The position numbers and the translations under genes are program-made. This document shows, piece by piece, positions 3,084 through 13,912 of a stretch of 13,912 nucleotides of DNA. Numbering within the stretch: the first letter of the stretch is position 1; every line of letters starts with the position of its first letter. Origin of the DNA: Treponema sp. (lineage in GTDB: Bacteria; Spirochaetota; Spirochaetia; Treponematales; Breznakiellaceae); assembly GCA_031278755.1 (NCBI GenBank), contig JAITJV010000187.1, forward strand, positions 1 through 13,912, in the 5' to 3' direction. The notes beneath the pieces were generated by a model. It worked only from the letters and a program-made list of their open reading frames with translations. It was not told where the DNA came from and did no database searches.

Positions 3084-6000
3084 TTAAAGATTCTGCCCCA
3101 GCCTTTTTTCCGCTTCCCGCCGGCTGATTTTTTTCCGTTTGGCCCAGTCGTCGATTTGATCGTCGTTAAGGCGGCCCACGCCAAAGTAATACGATCCGGG
3201 AGCGGCTATGTACATGCCGCATACCGAAGCGGCCGGGATAATCATCGCCGTTTCGGTCAGGCTTAATCCGCAGCGTTTTTCCGCATCAAGAAGATCAAAG
3301 GCTGTTTTTTTGCACCAGTGATCGGGGCAGGCGGGATAACCAAAAGCGGGCCTGATGCCCCGGAATTTTCCCGTGAGTATTTCTTCTGTGGACAATATTT
3401 CGTTCGGGGCGTAACCCCACCACTCCCTCCTTACACGAAGGTGTATTTCCTCCGAAAAAGCCTCGGTCAGCGTGTTGGTAAGGCTGGCAAGCAATATGGA
3501 AAGATAGCCGTCATTTTTTTCACGGTACTCTTTTAATGCTTCGGAAAGGCCGAACCCCGCGCTGAGGGCAAAAAACCCAATCCAGTCGGTTCCGTTTCCG
3601 GCTTTTTCCCCGGGCATGATAAAATCGGCAAGGCAGGCATTGGGCCCTCCGACCCGTTTTTTTTCCTGATTTCTGGGAAAACAAAAACGCGAGATTTCAA
3701 GCCCGCCGCTTCCATAAATAACAATATCGTCTCCATCGGAAAGGGCGGGAAAAAAACCAACGGCCCCGCGGAGTTCCAGTATTTTTTCACCGGTTATTTT
3801 TTTCAAAAGATCTTTTGCGTCATTAATAAGTTTGTCGCGGGCTTTTTGCCTTTTTTCCATATTTTCCGCGGTATAGGCGGTAGGATAGGTTTTTTCGGCA
3901 AGATCCCAGGTTTGAAGAAAAGAGGACCAATCTATATGTGGAATAACGCGATCTATAGGATAGTTTTTGAGTTCGATAACATCCTTTATTTTAGGTTCCG
4001 CCGGTATGTCAAACACCATCGGTATTTTGTTTTCCCTGGCTTTTTCAAGAGGAAGAAGCCCAATATAGTGTTTGCCTTTTTCATGCTGCATTGCGGCGTT
4101 CTGGTATGCTGTTTCAAGTTTTTCAAGGAAGACGTTTTTTTCAGTATCTGAAAAAAAGGATTGGACGACTTCCGCAGATTGGCTCGCGTCCGGCACATAA
4201 ACCACAGGCCCCGAATATTCCGGGGCTATTCTCAGACCGGTGTGGGCAAGGCTTGCGGCAGCCCCCCCTGTAAGGAGGGGAATTTCCCTGGCCTTTTTTT
4301 CCATTTCCCTGACCGTGGCGATCGTTTCGTTGCGGTTAATTTTTTTCCCCGCGCCGGATTTGTCCTGCATTTTTTCCGCAAGGGAAAGAAGGCGGCCTGA
4401 GGGATCTTTGCCTTCGTTACGGCGGAGTATTACATCCCCGGCGGCTTTACGCAGGGCGGGATCCGTTTCATCACAGGAAAGAAGGCCGCCCGGATTTACT
4501 ATGGCCATGGAAAGGCCCGCCGCCAGGGCGTGTTTAAGAAAGACCGCATGCATCGCTTCCCGGACCGCATTGTTTCCCCGAAAACTGAAGGAAAGATTTG
4601 AAATGCCGCCCGAAATTTGGGCGCCGGGGCAGTTCTTCCGTATCCATTCGCAGGCGCGTATAAAGTCAAGGGCGTACCTGTCGTGTTCGGGGATACCGGT
4701 GGCTATGGCAAGGACATTGGGATCAAAGACGACGTCGCCTGCGGGGAACCCATTGTTGATAAGCAGGTCCCAGGATCGCCGGGCGGTCTCTATCTTCCGC
4801 TCATAGTCCGCCGCCCGGCCCTTTTCGTCAAAAAGCATCACCACTACGGCGGCGCCGTAACGCCGGGCAAGGGCCGCCCTGCGGAGAAATTCTTCTTCGC
4901 CTTCCTTGAGGCTGATGGAATTGATAAGGCACTTTCCCTGTATGCATTTAAGGGCGGTTTCTATTACTTCCCAGCGGGAACTGTCTATCATCACGGGAAC
5001 ACGCGCTATTTCAGGATCCTGGGACGCAAGGCCGAGAAAGGTTTCCATCGCCTTTTCCGGGTCAAGAAGCGCATCGTCCATGCAGACGTCGATCATTTCC
5101 GCTCCGGCGCCAATCATGTCCCGGGCAATATCCAGGGCTTCATTGTATTTTTCGTCTTTAATAAGGCGGAGGAATTTGCGGCTGCCCGCGGCATTGGTAC
5201 GTTCTCCTATTATGGTAAAAGAACGTTTCCGGCTTTTGTCTGCGGCCGGTTCTGCGGAACCGTTTATGCGGAGCGGTTCAAGGCCGGAAAGAAACAGGCC
5301 GGCCTGTTTTGCCGGAATTTTCCGCGGCTTGTAACTCTTTGCCCTTTCGGCGATGACGGCAATATGGGAAGGCGTAGACCCGCAGCAGCCTCCCACAACG
5401 TTGACGATTCCTTCCGCCATATATTCTTCCAGGCAGTCCGCCATAAAAACAGGGTTTTCGCCGTATACACCCGACGAGTCGGGAAACCCCGCATTGGGGT
5501 AAACGCTGATAAAACAGGGAGCGAAGGCGGCAAGATTTGCCGCATAGGGTTTAAGCCGTTCCGCGCCGAAGGAACAGTTAAGGCCGACCGCCCAGGGTTT
5601 TGCATGAAGCACCGAAACGCAGAAGGCTTCTACCGTTTGGCCCGAAAGGAGCCTGCCCCCCTCGGAAACGGTGGCGGAGATTATAAGGGGAACGTCCTTT
5701 GTCCCGGCGCCTTTCCGCCTTTCTTCCAGGACACGGGCGATCGCGGCTATGGCGGCCTTGGTGTTGAGCGTGTCAACGGCCGTTTCTATGAGCAGTATAT
5801 CCGCGCCGCCGTCCAAAAGTCCCCTGACATTATCGTAATAGGCCGCTTCAAGTTCGTCCCAGGTTACGGCCCGTTTGGACGGATTGTTTATATCGGGAAA
5901 GATACTTGCGCTTTTTGCAGTCGGCCCGATGCTCCCCGCCACAAAGCGGGGTTTTTCGGGTATGGAAAATTTGTCCGCCGACTTGCGGGCCAGGCTTGCC

Positions 6001-6317
6001 GCCGCCGCGCTTATCTCGTAGGCAAGGCTCCCTATGCCGAAATCCGCGAGCGATACGGATGTGGCGTTTAAACTGCATGTTTCGATAATATCCGCCCCTG
6101 ACCGCAGATACGCTTCGTGTATTCCTGAAATTACCCAGGGGCTTGTAATGCAGAGAAGATCGTTACAGCCGAGAAGCGGGATCTTATGGTCCGCAAAGCG
6201 GCTGCCGCGGAAATCCGCTTCGGTAAGTTTGAAGGACTGTATCATTGAACCCATGGCGCCGTCGATAATGATGATACGTTCGGCGGCGGCGGCGTCCAAC
6301 TGTTCCCGTATATTCAT
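3084..6317 (-). CDS. metH: MetH-type methionine synthase lacking the cobalamin-ligand core
   Basis: This 1077-residue protein is homologous to cobalamin-dependent methionine synthase, which transfers methyl from 5-methyl-tetrahydrofolate through cob(I)alamin to homocysteine. The start is the ATG at 6317, with AAGGTG at 6325-6330 spaced 7 nt upstream; ATGs at 6323 and 6398 are less well placed. Residues 1-330 form the homocysteine domain, with DGAMGSMIQ, GLNCSFGAE (Cys248) and the zinc cysteines in GGCCGST (311-312). Residues ~366-640 form the pterin domain (IIGERTNAAGSRKF, MIDSSRWEVIE, GGISNLSFSFRG). Residues ~775-1077 form the AdoMet reactivation domain (HIDWSSFLQTW, RPAFGYPACPDH, AAPGSYYFGVGR). 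Between them only the tail of the B12 fold remains (REMEKKAREIPLLTGG through PVVYVPDASQSAEVV). The cap helices and the DxHxxG loop, equivalent to E. coli Asp757/His759 and Ser810, are absent. The frame is open with no stop. It could be a functional enzyme using a corrinoid protein in trans, a recently disabled gene, or an assembly deletion. Confidence 0.9.
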   Translation of the reverse strand: MNIREQLDAAAAERIIIIDGAMGSMIQSFKLTEADFRGSRFADHKIPLLGCNDLLCITSPWVISGIHEAYLRSGADIIETCSLNATSVSLADFGIGSLAYEISAAAASLARKSADKFSIPEKPRFVAGSIGPTAKSASIFPDINNPSKRAVTWDELEAAYYDNVRGLLDGGADILLIETAVDTLNTKAAIAAIARVLEERRKGAGTKDVPLIISATVSEGGRLLSGQTVEAFCVSVLHAKPWAVGLNCSFGAERLKPYAANLAAFAPCFISVYPNAGFPDSSGVYGENPVFMADCLEEYMAEGIVNVVGGCCGSTPSHIAVIAERAKSYKPRKIPAKQAGLFLSGLEPLRINGSAEPAADKSRKRSFTIIGERTNAAGSRKFLRLIKDEKYNEALDIARDMIGAGAEMIDVCMDDALLDPEKAMETFLGLASQDPEIARVPVMIDSSRWEVIETALKCIQGKCLINSISLKEGEEEFLRRAALARRYGAAVVVMLFDEKGRAADYERKIETARRSWDLLINNGFPAGDVVFDPNVLAIATGIPEHDRYALDFIRACEWIRKNCPGAQISGGISNLSFSFRGNNAVREAMHAVFLKHALAAGLSMAIVNPGGLLSCDETDPALRKAAGDVILRRNEGKDPSGRLLSLAEKMQDKSGAGKKINRNETIATVREMEKKAREIPLLTGGAAASLAHTGLRIAPEYSGPVVYVPDASQSAEVVQSFFSDTEKNVFLEKLETAYQNAAMQHEKGKHYIGLLPLEKARENKIPMVFDIPAEPKIKDVIELKNYPIDRVIPHIDWSSFLQTWDLAEKTYPTAYTAENMEKRQKARDKLINDAKDLLKKITGEKILELRGAVGFFPALSDGDDIVIYGSGGLEISRFCFPRNQEKKRVGGPNACLADFIMPGEKAGNGTDWIGFFALSAGFGLSEALKEYREKNDGYLSILLASLTNTLTEAFSEEIHLRVRREWWGYAPNEILSTEEILTGKFRGIRPAFGYPACPDHWCKKTAFDLLDAEKRCGLSLTETAMIIPAASVCGMYIAAPGSYYFGVGRLNDDQIDDWAKRKKISRREAEKRLGQNL

Positions 6318-6383
6318 ATTCATACACCTTAGATCAGGGTTTGTCAGATAACCCGGCAAACAACTATAATTGGAATTTCCGGG

Positions 6384-6412
6384 ATTCAGCTTTTTCATAA
6401 AAAAAGCTGAAT
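6384..6412. promoter_or_regulatory. Perfect 12-bp inverted repeat in the metH/aat-like divergent region
   Basis: ATTCAGCTTTTT (6384-6395) is followed by the 5-nt spacer CATAA and then by its exact reverse complement AAAAAGCTGAAT (6401-6412). It lies 66 bp upstream of the metH start and 57 bp upstream of the aat-like start. It could be a protein-binding operator serving either gene. It could also form a hairpin in the metH leader if transcription starts far enough upstream. It is not followed by a direct U-run on either strand, so a simple terminator is less likely. A spare metH ATG (6398) falls in its loop. No SAM or cobalamin riboswitch is recognisable; the region is too short for either. 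Confidence 0.55.
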
Positions 6413-6415
6413 TCT

Positions 6416-6432
6416 GACATTTTTTGAATGTC
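6416..6432. promoter_or_regulatory. Second, smaller inverted repeat overlapping the putative -35 region
   Basis: GACATT (6416-6421) and AATGTC (6427-6432) are exact reverse complements separated by TTTTG. The repeat begins 4 bp after the larger palindrome and covers the expected -35 area of the aat-like promoter. A position this close to the promoter would suit a repressor site, but the repeat is short and could be chance. Confidence 0.3.
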
Positions 6433-6449
6433 TGGAAACATTATATACT
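6422..6449 (+). promoter_or_regulatory. Candidate promoter for the aat-like operon
   Basis: A good -10 match, TATACT, sits at 6444-6449. The -35 is weak: TTTTGA at 6422-6427 gives a 16-bp spacer. Transcription would begin near 6456, giving a very short leader that already contains the ribosome-binding site GAAGGA (6457-6462). The weak -35, with palindromes over it, suggests regulated rather than constitutive expression; this is inference. Confidence 0.4.
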
Positions 6450-6469
6450 CTAATTCGAAGGATGAAAAA

Positions 6470-7198
6470 ATGAAAGCGTACCCGCTGGTTTATACCCCTT
6501 CGGGCCATGTTCTGATAAGTCCCGATGACGATCCCGGCCGGATAATGGATGAAATCGTCGCCACGGGGTACGACATGGAATCGTGCCTGGCTCTGGACTT
6601 TGATCCCGATTTTGCCGCCAGGCTGATTGCCGCGGGTTTTCTTGTCTTGTCCGTACGGGCGAAAGAGGGAGGCAATACGGTCGTTGTTCTGGAACCCACG
6701 CATCACTTAAGACGTTCGGTTTTGTTTTTTGACGAGTTTCATGAAAGCAGATCGGCAAAACGTCTTCTTTCACGTTATGAACTTAAAGCCGGCGCGGCGT
6801 TTGATACCATTATCGAAAAATGCCGTATTACTTACGGCGATGCATGGCTTACCCGCGAGCTTATTGATCTGCTGCTTAAAGTGAGAAAACTCAAGAAACC
6901 CGACGCCCGCTTTTTTTCCTTCGGCGTATACCGCGAAGGCAGGCTGCGGGCCGGCGAATTCGGTACGATTTCAGGCCGGGTGTACACAAGCTATTCAGGC
7001 TATCATGATGAAAATTCCGCGGGTACGGTTCAGATGATCCTTACCGCTCATTGGCTGCGTGAAAACGGATTTGCCTTTTGGGATTTGGGCATGCCCCTTC
7101 CCTACAAGGAAACGCTGGGCGCGCGCGTGCTGAACACGGAAGATTTTTTAAGGCTCTGGAAAAAGGCGCGTGATCCCCTGCCGTTGTTTCTCCAATAA
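6470..7198 (+). CDS. Aat-like (leucyl/phenylalanyl-tRNA-protein transferase family) protein
   Basis: The 242-residue product resembles leucyl/phenylalanyl-tRNA-protein transferase, which adds Leu or Phe to N-terminal Arg/Lys of proteins and marks them for ClpS/ClpAP degradation. The ATG at 6470 is preceded by GAAGGA with a 7-nt gap; an earlier ATG at 6428 has no ribosome-binding site and precedes the likely promoter. Family landmarks are AAFDTIIEKC followed by DAWLTRELIDLL (cf. AF..VI..CA and TWI), then FFSFGVYREGRL, and the C-terminal WLRENGFAFWDLGMP...LGARVLNTEDFLRLW (cf. the G..L.DCQ...HL.SLGA block). The length is normal for the family. However, the WWSPDPR motif, the GESMFS motif and the DCQ glutamine are not conserved (YTSYSGYHDENSAG and WDLG stand in their places), so the activity or substrate may differ and I give no gene symbol. 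The next gene follows after 57 bp. Confidence 0.65.
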   Translation: MKAYPLVYTPSGHVLISPDDDPGRIMDEIVATGYDMESCLALDFDPDFAARLIAAGFLVLSVRAKEGGNTVVVLEPTHHLRRSVLFFDEFHESRSAKRLLSRYELKAGAAFDTIIEKCRITYGDAWLTRELIDLLLKVRKLKKPDARFFSFGVYREGRLRAGEFGTISGRVYTSYSGYHDENSAGTVQMILTAHWLRENGFAFWDLGMPLPYKETLGARVLNTEDFLRLWKKARDPLPLFLQ

Positions 7199-7255: not shown

Positions 7256-8056
7256 ATGGACATCTGGCGGGAAACGTTTCCCCTCCGTTTTGGAGCAATA
7301 GATCGGAGCGACCGGTTAACCCTTTGGTCAACCTTCGAATTTTTTCAGGATGCGGCCATAAGCCATGCGGAAGTTCTCGGCGTAGGGCGGGAAGCAATGA
7401 AAACCACCGGACAGGCGTGGGTGCTTTCCCGGCTTTCGGTGTTTTGGGAACGCCGGCCTAAATACGGCGAGATCATTACGGTCCGATCCTGGCCCCGCGG
7501 CTGGGAAAAACTCTTTGCCATAAGGGACTATGATATCCGGGACGCGGAAGACAGGCCCATAGTCCGGGGCAGAAGCGGCTGGCTCATTCTGGATATTGAA
7601 AAACGCCGCCCCCTGCGGGTTCAGCAGATTGTGGCCCCCCTTCCCCGCAATGACGGAGAAAACGCCTTTTCCGCCGCGGCGCCGGGGCTTTCCGCGCGGG
7701 AAAACCTTGTACAAAGCGGCGAACGGCGCGCCGCCTATTCCGATGTTGATTACAACGGGCACGTAAACAATACCCGTTATATTCAGTGGATTCAGGATAT
7801 TGTCGATCCCGCGCTGCTTGAACGCGCGGAAAAGAAGAGGCTGGATATCAACTATTTAAGCGAAGTGAAGCCCGGTGAAATGATAGGCATCTGGATCGCC
7901 CCTTTTGCGGACGTGTCTTCTGACGCTTACGGCGCCGATTGCCCCGAAAAAGTATCCGCCGCTCTCGCCGTTGAAGGGCGGAGGCCGGAATCGGGGCAGA
8001 GCGTATTCAGGGCGGAACTGCGCATCGAAAGCGGCGCGCCGCAGCCTCCGGTATGA
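7256..8056 (+). CDS. Acyl-ACP thioesterase (double hotdog fold)
   Basis: This 266-residue protein belongs to the acyl-ACP thioesterase family, which hydrolyses acyl-acyl carrier protein to release free fatty acids and end chain elongation. The start at 7256 has AGGAG at 7246-7250, 5 nt upstream; an upstream in-frame ATG at 7205 has no such site. The first hotdog spans about residues 1-130 (RETFPLRFGAIDRSDR, QAWVLSRLSVFWERRP, ITVRSWPRGWEKLFAIRDY). The second, from about 145, carries the expected catalytic block: Asp165, Asn167 and His169 in DVDYNGHVNNTRYIQW, with an acidic residue Glu203 in NYLSEVKPGE. No signal peptide or membrane segment is present, as expected for a cytosolic enzyme. It lies 57 bp after the aat-like gene and overlaps the MetF-like gene by 4 bp. 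Bacterial members often tune membrane fatty-acid composition; the chain-length preference cannot be read from the sequence. Confidence 0.9.
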   Translation: MDIWRETFPLRFGAIDRSDRLTLWSTFEFFQDAAISHAEVLGVGREAMKTTGQAWVLSRLSVFWERRPKYGEIITVRSWPRGWEKLFAIRDYDIRDAEDRPIVRGRSGWLILDIEKRRPLRVQQIVAPLPRNDGENAFSAAAPGLSARENLVQSGERRAAYSDVDYNGHVNNTRYIQWIQDIVDPALLERAEKKRLDINYLSEVKPGEMIGIWIAPFADVSSDAYGADCPEKVSAALAVEGRRPESGQSVFRAELRIESGAPQPPV

Positions 8057-8817
8057 TCATAGCACTTGAAGCGGTTCCCCGAAGCCCCGAGGCGCTTGTC
8101 GAAACAGCCAAAACCGCGTCCGCGTTTCCGGAGATACGGATCATCAATGTGCCGGATCTTACCCGTTTTAAGATACGTTCCTGGGAAGCCTGCGGCATTC
8201 TGGCCGGGAACGGCGCGGCCTTTTCGTTTATGCCCCACCTCCGCGCAAGGGACTTTGATCCGCAAAAGCCCTTTCCCCATGCGGTCCTTTTCCGCAGCCT
8301 TGGCATAGACCGGACGCTGGTCATAGCGGGGGATGCGGCTTCCACTGATACAGCGGGCATTGCCGGCGCGGCGCCGACTATTTCCTTCATCAAAAAATTA
8401 AAATCCGAAATGCCGGAACTTTCTATCTTTACAGCTTTCGATCCGTACCGGTCAAACATACGCTATGAGCTGGACTACCTTCACGAAAAAAAGGAGGCGG
8501 GAGCGGCGGGCTTTTTCAGCCAGCCCTTTTTTGATTTGAGACTTCTTGAAATTTACGCGGAATACCTTGAAGGCGCCGATGTGTATTGGGGAATTTCCCC
8601 GGTGCTGTCGGACAAAAACCGGAACTACTGGGAGTCCAGAAACAGGGCGATCTTTCCAAAGTCTTTCAGGCCCAATTTTTTCTGGAATGTGGATTTCGGC
8701 CGCCGCGTCCTTGACTTCTGCGAAAAGCGCGGGTTTAACCTGTACTTTATGCCTATAAAAGTTGAACTTAAAACCTACCTTTCGGGGCTATTGGGAACCC
8801 CCGGAAACTCCGGTTGA
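8053..8817 (+). CDS. Short MetF-like methylenetetrahydrofolate reductase
   Basis: The 254-residue product looks like a divergent 5,10-methylenetetrahydrofolate reductase, the FAD-dependent TIM-barrel enzyme that makes 5-methyl-tetrahydrofolate, the methyl donor for methionine synthase. Its start ATG overlaps the thioesterase stop (ATGA), implying translational coupling. Residues matching the MetF active site are Glu6 (ALEAVPRS, cf. catalytic Glu in FEFFPP), His62 (FMPHLRARD, cf. APHL), Asp94 (LVIAGDA, cf. LRGD) and Gln157 (GFFSQPFFD, cf. ITQFFFD). The later stretch VYWGISPVLS fits IPGILPV. It is about 40 residues shorter than E. coli MetF, and the usual substrate-loop and C-terminal helices are changed. 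A link to the metH gene 1.7 kb away is functionally attractive although the two are not in one operon. It may alternatively be a MetF paralogue with another folate substrate. Confidence 0.7.
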   Translation: MIIALEAVPRSPEALVETAKTASAFPEIRIINVPDLTRFKIRSWEACGILAGNGAAFSFMPHLRARDFDPQKPFPHAVLFRSLGIDRTLVIAGDAASTDTAGIAGAAPTISFIKKLKSEMPELSIFTAFDPYRSNIRYELDYLHEKKEAGAAGFFSQPFFDLRLLEIYAEYLEGADVYWGISPVLSDKNRNYWESRNRAIFPKSFRPNFFWNVDFGRRVLDFCEKRGFNLYFMPIKVELKTYLSGLLGTPGNSG

Positions 8818-9794: not shown

Positions 9795-10211
9795 TCAGGG
9801 CAATTCGGCGGAAACCGCTTTCATCAGTTCCTTTCTGTCTATGCCCCAGTTTCTTCCGAAACGCGCAAGGTCCCCGTCCGTGTAAAGCCTGTAGGGGGAA
9901 GGCAGGCGGGAAAGATCCGGGGCTTCGGCATCAATGAATTTCGGTGTGTTTTTTCCTTTGAGTATGGCGCGGCAAAGCAGTTCCAGGGCCGCCCGGTGAT
10001 TCCAGATTGAAACGGACATGGCAAAAATACGGGGCCTTGCCGCAAGAATGGGTTCCGTTTTTTCGGACAGGGGCTGCCGGAGGTTGAATTCAGGAATTTC
10101 GGAATTTTCTTCCAGTTCTTCAAGGCCGGCTTTAAGGAGGCGGACGGCAAGGGAAGGATGTATCCATTTTGCGTTGATTGAGGAAAGAAGTATGCCGGCC
10201 CGTCCCGTCAA
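9795..10211 (-). pseudogene. Remnant of a B12-binding radical-SAM (DUF4080-like) protein
   Basis: The 138-residue frame begins with the start of a B12-binding radical-SAM protein of the DUF4080 kind: ILLSSINAKWIHPSLAVRLL, FNLRQPLSEKTEPILAARP and MSVSIWNHRAALELL match the first half of the B12-binding Rossmann domain. It then jumps to the linker that normally follows that domain (ILKGKNTPKFIDAEAP, SPYRLYTDGDLA), and jumps again to an unrelated-looking or extreme C-terminal tail (RFGRNWGIDRKELMKAVSAELP). The middle of the B12 domain and the entire radical-SAM core, including any CxxxCxxC cluster motif, are missing; full members are several times longer. I place the start at the TTG at 10211, which overlaps the TGA of the phosphatase gene (TTGA), a typical coupled junction; no ATG precedes the conserved sequence. 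It is most likely a decayed gene, although the open frame leaves a small residual protein possible. Confidence 0.6.
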
Positions 10212-10864
10212 ACTACCGGGCCGTTCCCCTGCCGAAGCCTGCCGTTGAAGTCCACAGCTCCAAAGAGATCCAGGGTGCCTGTTTTCCATTCCTCCATACT
10301 GTTCATCACCATGCTTTCGGCTTTAATCCAGGAATCCGCACGGGGTCCGGCGATCATGCGGTTTGTGGAATTGGTAAAGACTATGGTCCTGCACCCCTGT
10401 TCACGGAGCTTTATGACGTTTGCAGGCGCGTCGTCTATGTACACATGCGCTCCCACCGCGCCCTTGTCCGCCATGAAGCAGATGTCCCAGTAGGGAATGT
10501 CGTAGTTGTCAAGCCAGTCAACGGTCTGGGTGATGGTGGTTTTGTGGGAATATTTGAGAAAGAGCCGGTGGGTAATGATCCGTATGCGTATGCCGCGGCT
10601 GGAAAGTTTCCGCAGAACGGCAGGGGCGTTTGTAATCGGCGCCATGTCGCGGAAGATGTTACGCTGCGTAACCGCAAAACGGTGAAGCCTGTCGTAGCCC
10701 CCGAATTCGGCGATGTTCCATTCCTCAAGCCCGTAGCTGACTTCTTCGGTAAGTGAGTCAAGGGGCCTGTTGAGCCATTCGGCGGCTATACGGCGCATTG
10801 CCCCGTAAAAATCGCCGACGACTCCGTCCAGATCCACCCCAAGTATAAATGTGCTTTCGTCCAT
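10208..10864 (-). CDS. NT5C-type HAD phosphatase (5'-nucleotidase-like)
   Basis: The 218-residue protein fits the NT5C family of HAD phosphatases, whose characterised members dephosphorylate (deoxy)ribonucleoside 5'-monophosphates. The ATG at 10864 is preceded by GAGG with a 5-nt gap. HAD motifs appear in order: motif I GVDLDGVVGDF (nucleophile Asp11, acid/base Asp13), motif II threonine in IITHR (Thr98), motif III lysine in MADKGAVG (Lys134) and motif IV acidic pair in VYIDDAPANV (Asp144, Asp145). A helical cap sits between motifs I and II (residues ~20-75). All catalytic residues are present, so it should be active; the substrate is not determined by these motifs. It starts 22 bp after the glgX stop and its stop overlaps the next start, so it belongs to the glgX transcription unit. 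Confidence 0.8.
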   Translation of the reverse strand: MDESTFILGVDLDGVVGDFYGAMRRIAAEWLNRPLDSLTEEVSYGLEEWNIAEFGGYDRLHRFAVTQRNIFRDMAPITNAPAVLRKLSSRGIRIRIITHRLFLKYSHKTTITQTVDWLDNYDIPYWDICFMADKGAVGAHVYIDDAPANVIKLREQGCRTIVFTNSTNRMIAGPRADSWIKAESMVMNSMEEWKTGTLDLFGAVDFNGRLRQGNGPVV

Positions 10865-13093: not shown

Positions 13094-13531
13094 TTACCTT
13101 TTGAACCTCCGGCACCGGCTGCATCCCAGAACATGGACATGGGGCCTCCGGCGGGGCCATTCGAACATACGGGCGACGAGGATTTCATCATCTTTAAGAT
13201 GTACTCCGCAGACCGGGCAGAAACGCGGGCGGCCGCCTTCGAGGCAGTACACACAGCCCCGTAAATACATAAGCCTGTCCTTCCCGTTGAACGAAGGGAA
13301 AGCCGACGATTTTACCAGATCCCCGTCGTTAAGTATGGCGGAACAGACGGGGCAAGTCTGGGGCGATCCGGGAAGGGCTTCGCCTTTCGGCTGCCGCGGG
13401 CGGAGGCCTTTCTGTTTTTTGGGGAATATGGCACGGGTTCCGCCGCCGAGGGTGAAAAACAGGGTATAGCCGAACCAGAGGAGAGCCGTTCCTATAATAA
13501 CCAGAACCAGTATTTCAACGTATAAAGCCAT
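13094..13531 (-). CDS. Membrane-anchored zinc-ribbon protein of unknown function
   Basis: The 145-residue product has an N-terminal hydrophobic helix (residues ~5-28, VEILVLVIIGTALLWFGYTLFF), most likely a membrane anchor, then a basic linker and a cytoplasmic part with four CxxC pairs: Cys60/63, 93/96, 105/108 and 137/140. The spacing suggests two zinc ribbons or rubredoxin-like knuckles (TCPVCSAIL, RFCPVCGVHL). The protein ends in a basic RCRRFKR tail. I do not know the family and assign no function. I chose the ATG at 13531, which has AGGA just upstream (tight spacing); the frame stays open to 13720, but that extension looks non-coding. It lies upstream of glgX in the same direction, probably as the first gene of that run. 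Confidence 0.75.
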   Translation of the reverse strand: MALYVEILVLVIIGTALLWFGYTLFFTLGGGTRAIFPKKQKGLRPRQPKGEALPGSPQTCPVCSAILNDGDLVKSSAFPSFNGKDRLMYLRGCVYCLEGGRPRFCPVCGVHLKDDEILVARMFEWPRRRPHVHVLGCSRCRRFKR

Positions 13532-13713
13532 TATTCCTGACCAAGAGGCTGAAATTGCCGGACGGCGCACCGGCGGCCTAAAGTCCGCCGGCCTTTTCCG
13601 CAACCCGCGGCTTTCATCGGGCGCCGGTCCGGGCCGCATGCGTCCATAAATCAGCCTGCGGCTGAAATTGCCGGACGGTAGCCTTGCCGATTCCCCCAAG
13701 ATATACTTGAGGG
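13532..13713. other. Divergent intergenic region with hairpins, upstream of rsmI
   Basis: This 182-bp gap between two divergent genes holds a GC-rich stem (CCGGCGG at 13570-13576 and CCGCCGG at 13585-13591, 8-nt loop, followed by CCTTTT on the plus strand) and a small hairpin TCAGCC-TGC-GGCTGA (13651-13665). It also contains a pair of direct repeats, listed separately. I see no convincing gene. A TATACT at 13702-13707 lies too close to the rsmI start and lacks a properly spaced -35, so I do not call a promoter. Confidence 0.4.
13547..13678. repeat. Pair of 19-bp direct repeats
   Basis: GGCTGAAATTGCCGGACGG occurs at 13547-13565 and again at 13660-13678 with no mismatch, a spacing of 113 bp start to start. 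The flanks do not match. The copies could be paired binding sites, a small tandem-duplication scar, or copies of a short dispersed repeat. Confidence 0.7.
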
Positions 13714-13912
13714 ATGGCAATCCTGTATATTATCGGCACACCCATAGGAAATCTGGGGGATTTGACCTTCCGGGCGGCCGAGATCTTTAAAACCGCCGAT
13801 GCGGTCGCCTGCGAAGACACCCGGCGTACACTGAAACTGCTCAGTCATCTGGGAATCAGGGCGCCGCTCATTTCATGCAGGGCTCAAAATGAACGGTTTG
13901 CCGCCGAAAAGG
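13714..13912 (+). CDS. rsmI: 16S rRNA (cytidine-1402 2'-O)-methyltransferase, 5' part
   Basis: The window ends 66 codons into this gene. The protein begins MAILYIIGTPIGNLGDLTFR and continues with DAVACEDTRRTLKLLSHLGI, the AdoMet-binding start and following block of RsmI, a member of the tetrapyrrole-methylase superfamily. RsmI 2'-O-methylates C1402 in the ribosomal decoding centre. Full-length members have about 280 residues, so roughly three quarters lie beyond the window. The ATG at 13714 is the first possible start after an in-frame TGA at 13708 and matches the family N-terminus; the only purine-rich sequence is GAGGG immediately before it, which is unusually tight. It is divergent from the zinc-ribbon gene. 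Confidence 0.93.
   Translation, partial: MAILYIIGTPIGNLGDLTFRAAEIFKTADAVACEDTRRTLKLLSHLGIRAPLISCRAQNERFAAEK

Follow-up and report, generated by a model that had tools for sequence, protein, structure and literature searches.

The window, meaning the whole stretch of 13,912 nucleotides analysed, is contig C202 of a Treponema assembly of 1.73 Mb (322 contigs, 62% complete). Its minus strand carries a metH-derived open reading frame of 1104 codons that contains no stop and no frameshift (Table 1). In the cobalamin-dependent methionine synthase MetH, the methyl group passes from methyl-folate to cobalamin and from cobalamin to homocysteine. The encoded chain resembles MetH (TIGR02082, NF007024) in the order of its homocysteine, pterin, and activation domains, but differs in having neither the cap nor a complete B12 domain. 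A Pfam scan of the 1104 residues matched neither the cap, PF02607 (B12-binding_2), nor the B12-binding domain, PF02310, and in a control the same Pfam library found all five domains in the MetH of G001 and G002, two of the three same-genus genomes used for comparison (G001, G002, and G003, 85-87% complete, hereafter the congeners). The motifs GLNCS, GGCCG, and RPAFGYPACPDH are found in the translation; the roles assigned to them and to the MetH domains are those of MetH in general. A preliminary description of the locus as a MetH without its cobalamin-ligand core and cap, in an intact frame and with the homocysteine, pterin, and AdoMet-reactivation parts retained, is borne out by the Pfam matches (PF02574, PF00809, PF02965), by these motifs, and by alignment to a solved structure and to the congeners.

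Table 1. Features of the two damaged genes in the window, and truncated MetH-derived loci inspected in other genomes.
Feature	Position or locus	Strand	Basis or remark
metH-derived ORF, 1104 aa, without cap and most of the B12 domain	3084..6398	-	ORF, Pfam, TIGR02082/NF007024 scores
Homocysteine S-methyltransferase domain, PF02574 (S-methyl_trans), residues 43-352	5343..6272	-	Pfam
Pterin-binding domain, PF00809 (Pterin_bind), residues 398-635	4494..5207	-	Pfam
Deletion join, codons N690-E691, AAC GAA	4326..4331	-	Alignment to congeners
B12-binding domain remnant (C-terminal part), residues 692-780, limits chosen by the authors	4059..4325	-	Alignment to 9ssp_A and congeners
AdoMet activation domain, PF02965 (Met_synt_B12), residues 815-1090	3129..3956	-	Pfam
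B12-binding radical SAM remnant, 164-aa ORF taken as the longest frame, with the true start probably more internal	9795..10289	-	Comparison with G001, G003, G148
Join of 48-codon in-frame deletion within the B12-binding domain of the radical SAM gene	9972..9977	-	Comparison with G001
Join left by the in-frame loss of 301 codons that covered the radical SAM core	9863..9869	-	Comparison with G001; CTTGCGC at both break sites
Inspected truncated MetH-derived loci	L021, L022, L024, L026, L028, L029, L030, L031, L060, L061		Several genera of the family

Alignment to 9ssp_A, a solved methionine synthase, pairs residues 27-688 of the chain with 15-661 and residues 690-1102 with 838-1258, so that 176 residues of the target are skipped. 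Compared with the congeners, 161 codons (G001 and G003) or 165 codons (G002) are missing, equivalent to 483-495 bp and close to the roughly 170 residues first estimated. The join had been placed near 4330-4345; alignment puts it at the edge of that range, at the codons listed in Table 1. The loss of the cap and B12 stretch from the metH-derived frame is far beyond chance. The shortened chain nevertheless scores 1085.3 bits against TIGR02082, above the equivalog cut-off of 1010.85, and 1279.5 bits against NF007024, below the cut-off of 1497.

MetH is full-length in all three congeners (frames of 1245, 1316, and 1276 codons), with 73-80% identity by segment. Among 58 genomes searched with the protein, its own included, 42 matched, and only the window's own gene matched as a single piece across residues 1-1104. 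At an E-value of 1e-30 or better, 149 of 195 genomes of the family gave a match, and no other internal loss like that of the window was seen among the matches listed. A search of about 5.8 billion proteins yielded 8000 scored candidates, 7977 of which passed; among the 120 matches listed from these, one was the chain itself, and the other 119 all contained both PF02607 and PF02310. The metH join is known from one contig within the data covered. The comparison with close relatives proposed in the preliminary description thus finds complete genes in the congeners and no recurrence of the join among the matches listed. The open-access literature searched contained no description of a MetH with such an internal loss, and in PMC13067680, on related termite-gut spirochaetes, methionine, MetH, MetE, and cobalamin do not occur as whole words.

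The second damaged gene in the window is a remnant of a B12-binding radical SAM gene. Its intact counterpart encodes 513-529 residues in G001, G003, and G148, and the 513-residue protein of G001 contains B12-binding, radical SAM, and DUF4080 domains by Pfam; the 164-residue remnant has no Pfam match. G002 and G058 gave no counterpart, and the matches in G009 and G059 were distant. The contig therefore carries three large in-frame deletions in two genes, both of them members of B12-binding protein families. The nine other window genes align with those of G001 without a large gap, the maximum being 12 gap positions in the methylenetetrahydrofolate reductase-like gene; this includes the neighbour at 13094-13720 (residues 54-204 of 208 aligned), which an early pass had aligned in two frames. 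If two of the eleven genes were hit at random, the chance that both would be the B12 ones is 1 in 55 by our arithmetic. A final survey, preceded by earlier passes, covered 45 ORF pairs between sampled sequence of G001 and the genome of the window (G000), 11 on the window contig and 34 elsewhere. Losses of at least 40 residues occur in these two genes only; none of the 34 pairs on other contigs lost as much (one lost 21), a control weakened because several of these pairs are antisense or paralogous with stops and the true orthologue pairs are accordingly fewer. In-frame deletion as a genome-wide tendency was rejected on this count.

Gene order over about 10 kb is common to the window and G001, with the exception of a leucyl/phenylalanyl-tRNA transferase-like gene (6428-7198, plus strand). 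This gene adjoins metH in the window; its closest match in the sampled sequence of G001 lies elsewhere (L084, 60% identity), and a relative stands beside metH in G058 (L062). The methylenetetrahydrofolate reductase-like gene (8053-8817, plus strand) scores 19.9 bits against a Pfam cut-off of 24, is conserved next to metH in G001 and G148, and has a dN/dS of about 0.10.

The break sites offer some indication of how the deletions arose. For the 301-codon deletion, the intact radical SAM gene of G001 has the seven bases CTTGCGC at both break sites. In-phase identity around the metH join amounts to 5 bp in G002, 3 bp in G001, and 2 bp in G003, and at the 48-codon join no clear in-phase repeat was seen. 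Random in-phase site pairs drawn from the G002 metH share at least 5 bp in 1.1% and at least 7 bp in 0.17% of draws. Taken together, these values make deletion between short repeats likely for the 301-codon join and only possible for the other two. Among repeat pairs of at least 6 bases lying 120-1500 bp apart, the share in phase is 52-61% for the metH of the three congeners and 42-57% for the radical SAM gene (two genomes), against an expected one third. The three intact frames, at first sight a proof of selection, are for this reason not strong evidence for function.

Selection on what remains of metH was examined through dN/dS. Values between the window and the congeners, followed by those among the congeners, are 0.14-0.17 and 0.06-0.09 for the homocysteine domain, 0.10-0.12 and 0.09-0.11 for the pterin domain, 0.15-0.21 and 0.20-0.22 for the activation domain, and 0.19-0.29 and 0.03-0.08 for the 89-codon B12 remnant. 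Conserved columns are broken at 8 of 140 positions in the homocysteine domain, 5 of 110 in the pterin domain, and 3 of 73 in the activation domain, similar to the congeners. In the remnant, 3 of 27 are broken and none in any congener, a value within the range of 139 reference proteins at the same columns (mean 3.9%, maximum 29.6%). With G001 as the comparison and G148 as outgroup, the relative-rate counts came to 73 to 57 over the gene and 10 to 4 over the remnant, without significance in either case. The retained domains stay constrained; dN/dS is slightly raised in the homocysteine domain and not in the pterin and activation domains, and only the remnant hints at relaxation. The preliminary description had also raised a deletion unique to this strain with relaxed selection: uniqueness holds among the matches listed, and relaxation is at most slight and is hinted at mainly in the remnant. 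The homocysteine, pterin, and activation domains show no visible decay, as would be expected after a recent loss, from an artefact, or under continued use.

A chain without its own cobalamin module raises the matter of a partner. Profile searches for PF02607 and PF02310 found no match anywhere in the genome of the window, and neither a second metH nor a MetE was seen there, although absences from an assembly 62% complete are weak. In the more complete congeners, no stand-alone PF02607 protein was found in any of the three, the sole PF02607 match lying inside MetH. The radical SAM protein, reduced to a remnant in the window, gives the only PF02310 match outside MetH in the congeners, and was seen in G001 and G003. 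MetE is matched in one congener of the three. The corrinoid protein in trans, the second full metH, and the metE suggested earlier as places to look were thus not encountered in the genome as assembled. A wholesale loss of cobalamin use was also considered; against it stands a match in the genome of the window to the PF01923 adenosyltransferase family (44.2 bits, cut-off 24). Class II ribonucleotide reductase (TIGR02504) is matched in all three congeners and not in the genome of the window; at 62% completeness, the absence of TIGR02504 and the presence of PF01923 decide nothing on cobalamin use.

Elsewhere in the family, MetH appears in several dismantled forms. In many genomes, MetH-derived chains stop within or just past the pterin domain, with frames of about 460-660 codons. 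Like the chain of the window, these keep the homocysteine domain and have no B12 domain; unlike it, they have no activation domain, whereas in the window the loss is internal and both ends of the chain remain. In the ten loci inspected (Table 1), which were picked by containing GGCCG and keep that motif by construction, the NCS motif of the homocysteine domain is also kept in every case, and most are altered where the pterin domain begins, which reads GERTN in the window. A split of metH between the pterin domain and the cap occurs in G149 (L059:2676-6415), where overlapping frames of 660 and 594 codons encode the two parts; in G150, from the same genus, a match was obtained for the first part alone. 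A hand tally among the matches listed found a PF02607 protein in 22 of 29 genomes with a single truncated match and none in 7, with contig ends checked for the inspected loci only. Where the single match is truncated, a PF02607 protein elsewhere in the genome must be stand-alone. The tally left out G189, G207, and G213 (second match) and G066, G113, G125, G149, and G152 (at a contig edge, in an odd frame, or split).

Divided methionine synthases are also known outside the family. In Phaeobacter inhibens (PMC5764234), separate proteins supply the methyltransferase, pterin, and corrinoid parts, three in all, and reactivation falls to a RamA-like protein. The likeness to the window is that the chains with methyltransferase and pterin functions contain no B12 domains; the difference is that the window holds three domains in one chain and that no corrinoid protein was found in its genome as assembled. 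The two-part MetH of Burkholderia phytofirmans and Bacteroides thetaiotaomicron (PMC7311316) likewise divides the MetH domains, but retains all five, with the B12 domains beside the pterin domain, whereas the B12 domains are missing in the window.

Since close relatives retain the part that holds B12, the locus is most likely a disabled or mis-assembled gene and not a new kind of enzyme. An in-frame deletion has probably disabled MetH in a lineage that is shedding B12-domain proteins. Judged from the three congeners, an ordinary cobalamin-dependent methionine synthase gene has lost about 0.49 kb in frame in its own lineage, and with it the cap and most of the B12 domain, ligand loop included. 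From the MetH mechanism given above, a chain without that loop would be expected to be unable to pass methyl from methyl-folate to homocysteine via its own cobalamin. The most likely course is deletion, clearly between short repeats at one join, since which there has been little time to decay further, in a lineage that seems to be losing B12-domain proteins. Such events can leave the frame intact fairly often by chance alone, as repeats in these genes are computed to have a tendency to lie in phase. The full gene in 3/3 congeners, the two in-frame losses in a second gene of the contig, the 9/9 other window genes without a large gap, the in-phase excess of 52-61%, the remnant dN/dS of 0.19-0.29, the absence of PF02607 and PF02310 elsewhere in the assembled genome, and the absence of stand-alone PF02607 in 3/3 congeners favour a disabled gene. 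Against it stand the 1104 open codons, retained domains that are not visibly decaying, the non-significant 73 to 57, the remnant's 3/27 within the reference range, a metH join repeat of 5 bp in G002 only, the missing in-phase repeat at the 48-codon join, and an assembly 62% complete. Among the readings offered in the preliminary description, a recent disabling deletion in frame is the best supported, with full-length congeners and a second B12-binding gene gutted.

The chief rival to a disabled gene is an artefact of assembly or amplification, in which a chimeric template or strain mixture misjoined the contig and the real genome has complete genes. Three large deletions on one contig, set against none of at least 40 residues in 34 ORF pairs elsewhere, would suit such an origin, as would a join found on a single contig among the matches listed and the fragmentation of the assembly into 322 contigs. 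All three losses keep the frame, however, an outcome that chance would give 1 time in 27, and the identity at the break sites amounts to 2-7 bp, which is too short to mislead a k-mer assembler. Furthermore, a domain search found the missing cap and B12 stretches on no other contig of the assembly. An artefact is accordingly unlikely, though it deserves more weight than either of the functional alternatives.

A three-domain methionine synthase could in principle act together with a corrinoid protein supplied in trans, whose cobalamin its activation domain would re-methylate, but this is doubtful. Constraint on the homocysteine, pterin, and activation domains beside a looser B12 remnant (small numbers) points in this direction, as do the split synthase of Phaeobacter with its separate corrinoid protein (PMC5764234) and the many family genomes that keep MetH-derived chains without a B12 domain, a PF02607 protein being present in 22 of the 29 tallied. 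The remaining 7 of 29 also show no PF02607 match, PF02607 and PF02310 are unmatched in the genome of the window, and the three congeners, without a stand-alone PF02607 protein, leave a partner in trans unsupported. The arrangement is chemically reasonable and possible, yet nothing found supplies the partner. It is equally doubtful that a three-domain synthase whose cobalamin module was excised remains under selection with a mobile corrinoid protein serving it in trans, as a further route in a spirochaete family dismantling MetH several ways. Least probable, and very improbable overall, is a chain kept for its homocysteine domain alone, using a non-corrinoid methyl donor with the rest carried along. 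Chains of a homocysteine domain and an eroded pterin piece occur in several genera of the family, so that this domain seems to be kept there without the B12 part. In the window, the pterin and activation domains are intact and constrained as well, which is unexpected for passengers unless the loss is recent.

A disabled MetH at this locus carries a practical warning. Because the chain scores above the equivalog threshold of TIGR02082, an automatic pipeline can overlook the loss; the chain could then be labelled a working MetH and lead to a wrong prediction of methionine synthesis. If the chain were instead active in trans, the cobalamin module of MetH would be shown to be detachable. The truncated chains of other family members are possible homocysteine methyltransferases free of a cobalamin domain. 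The more promising question may be how homocysteine is methylated in a family where many genomes have MetH truncated or split.
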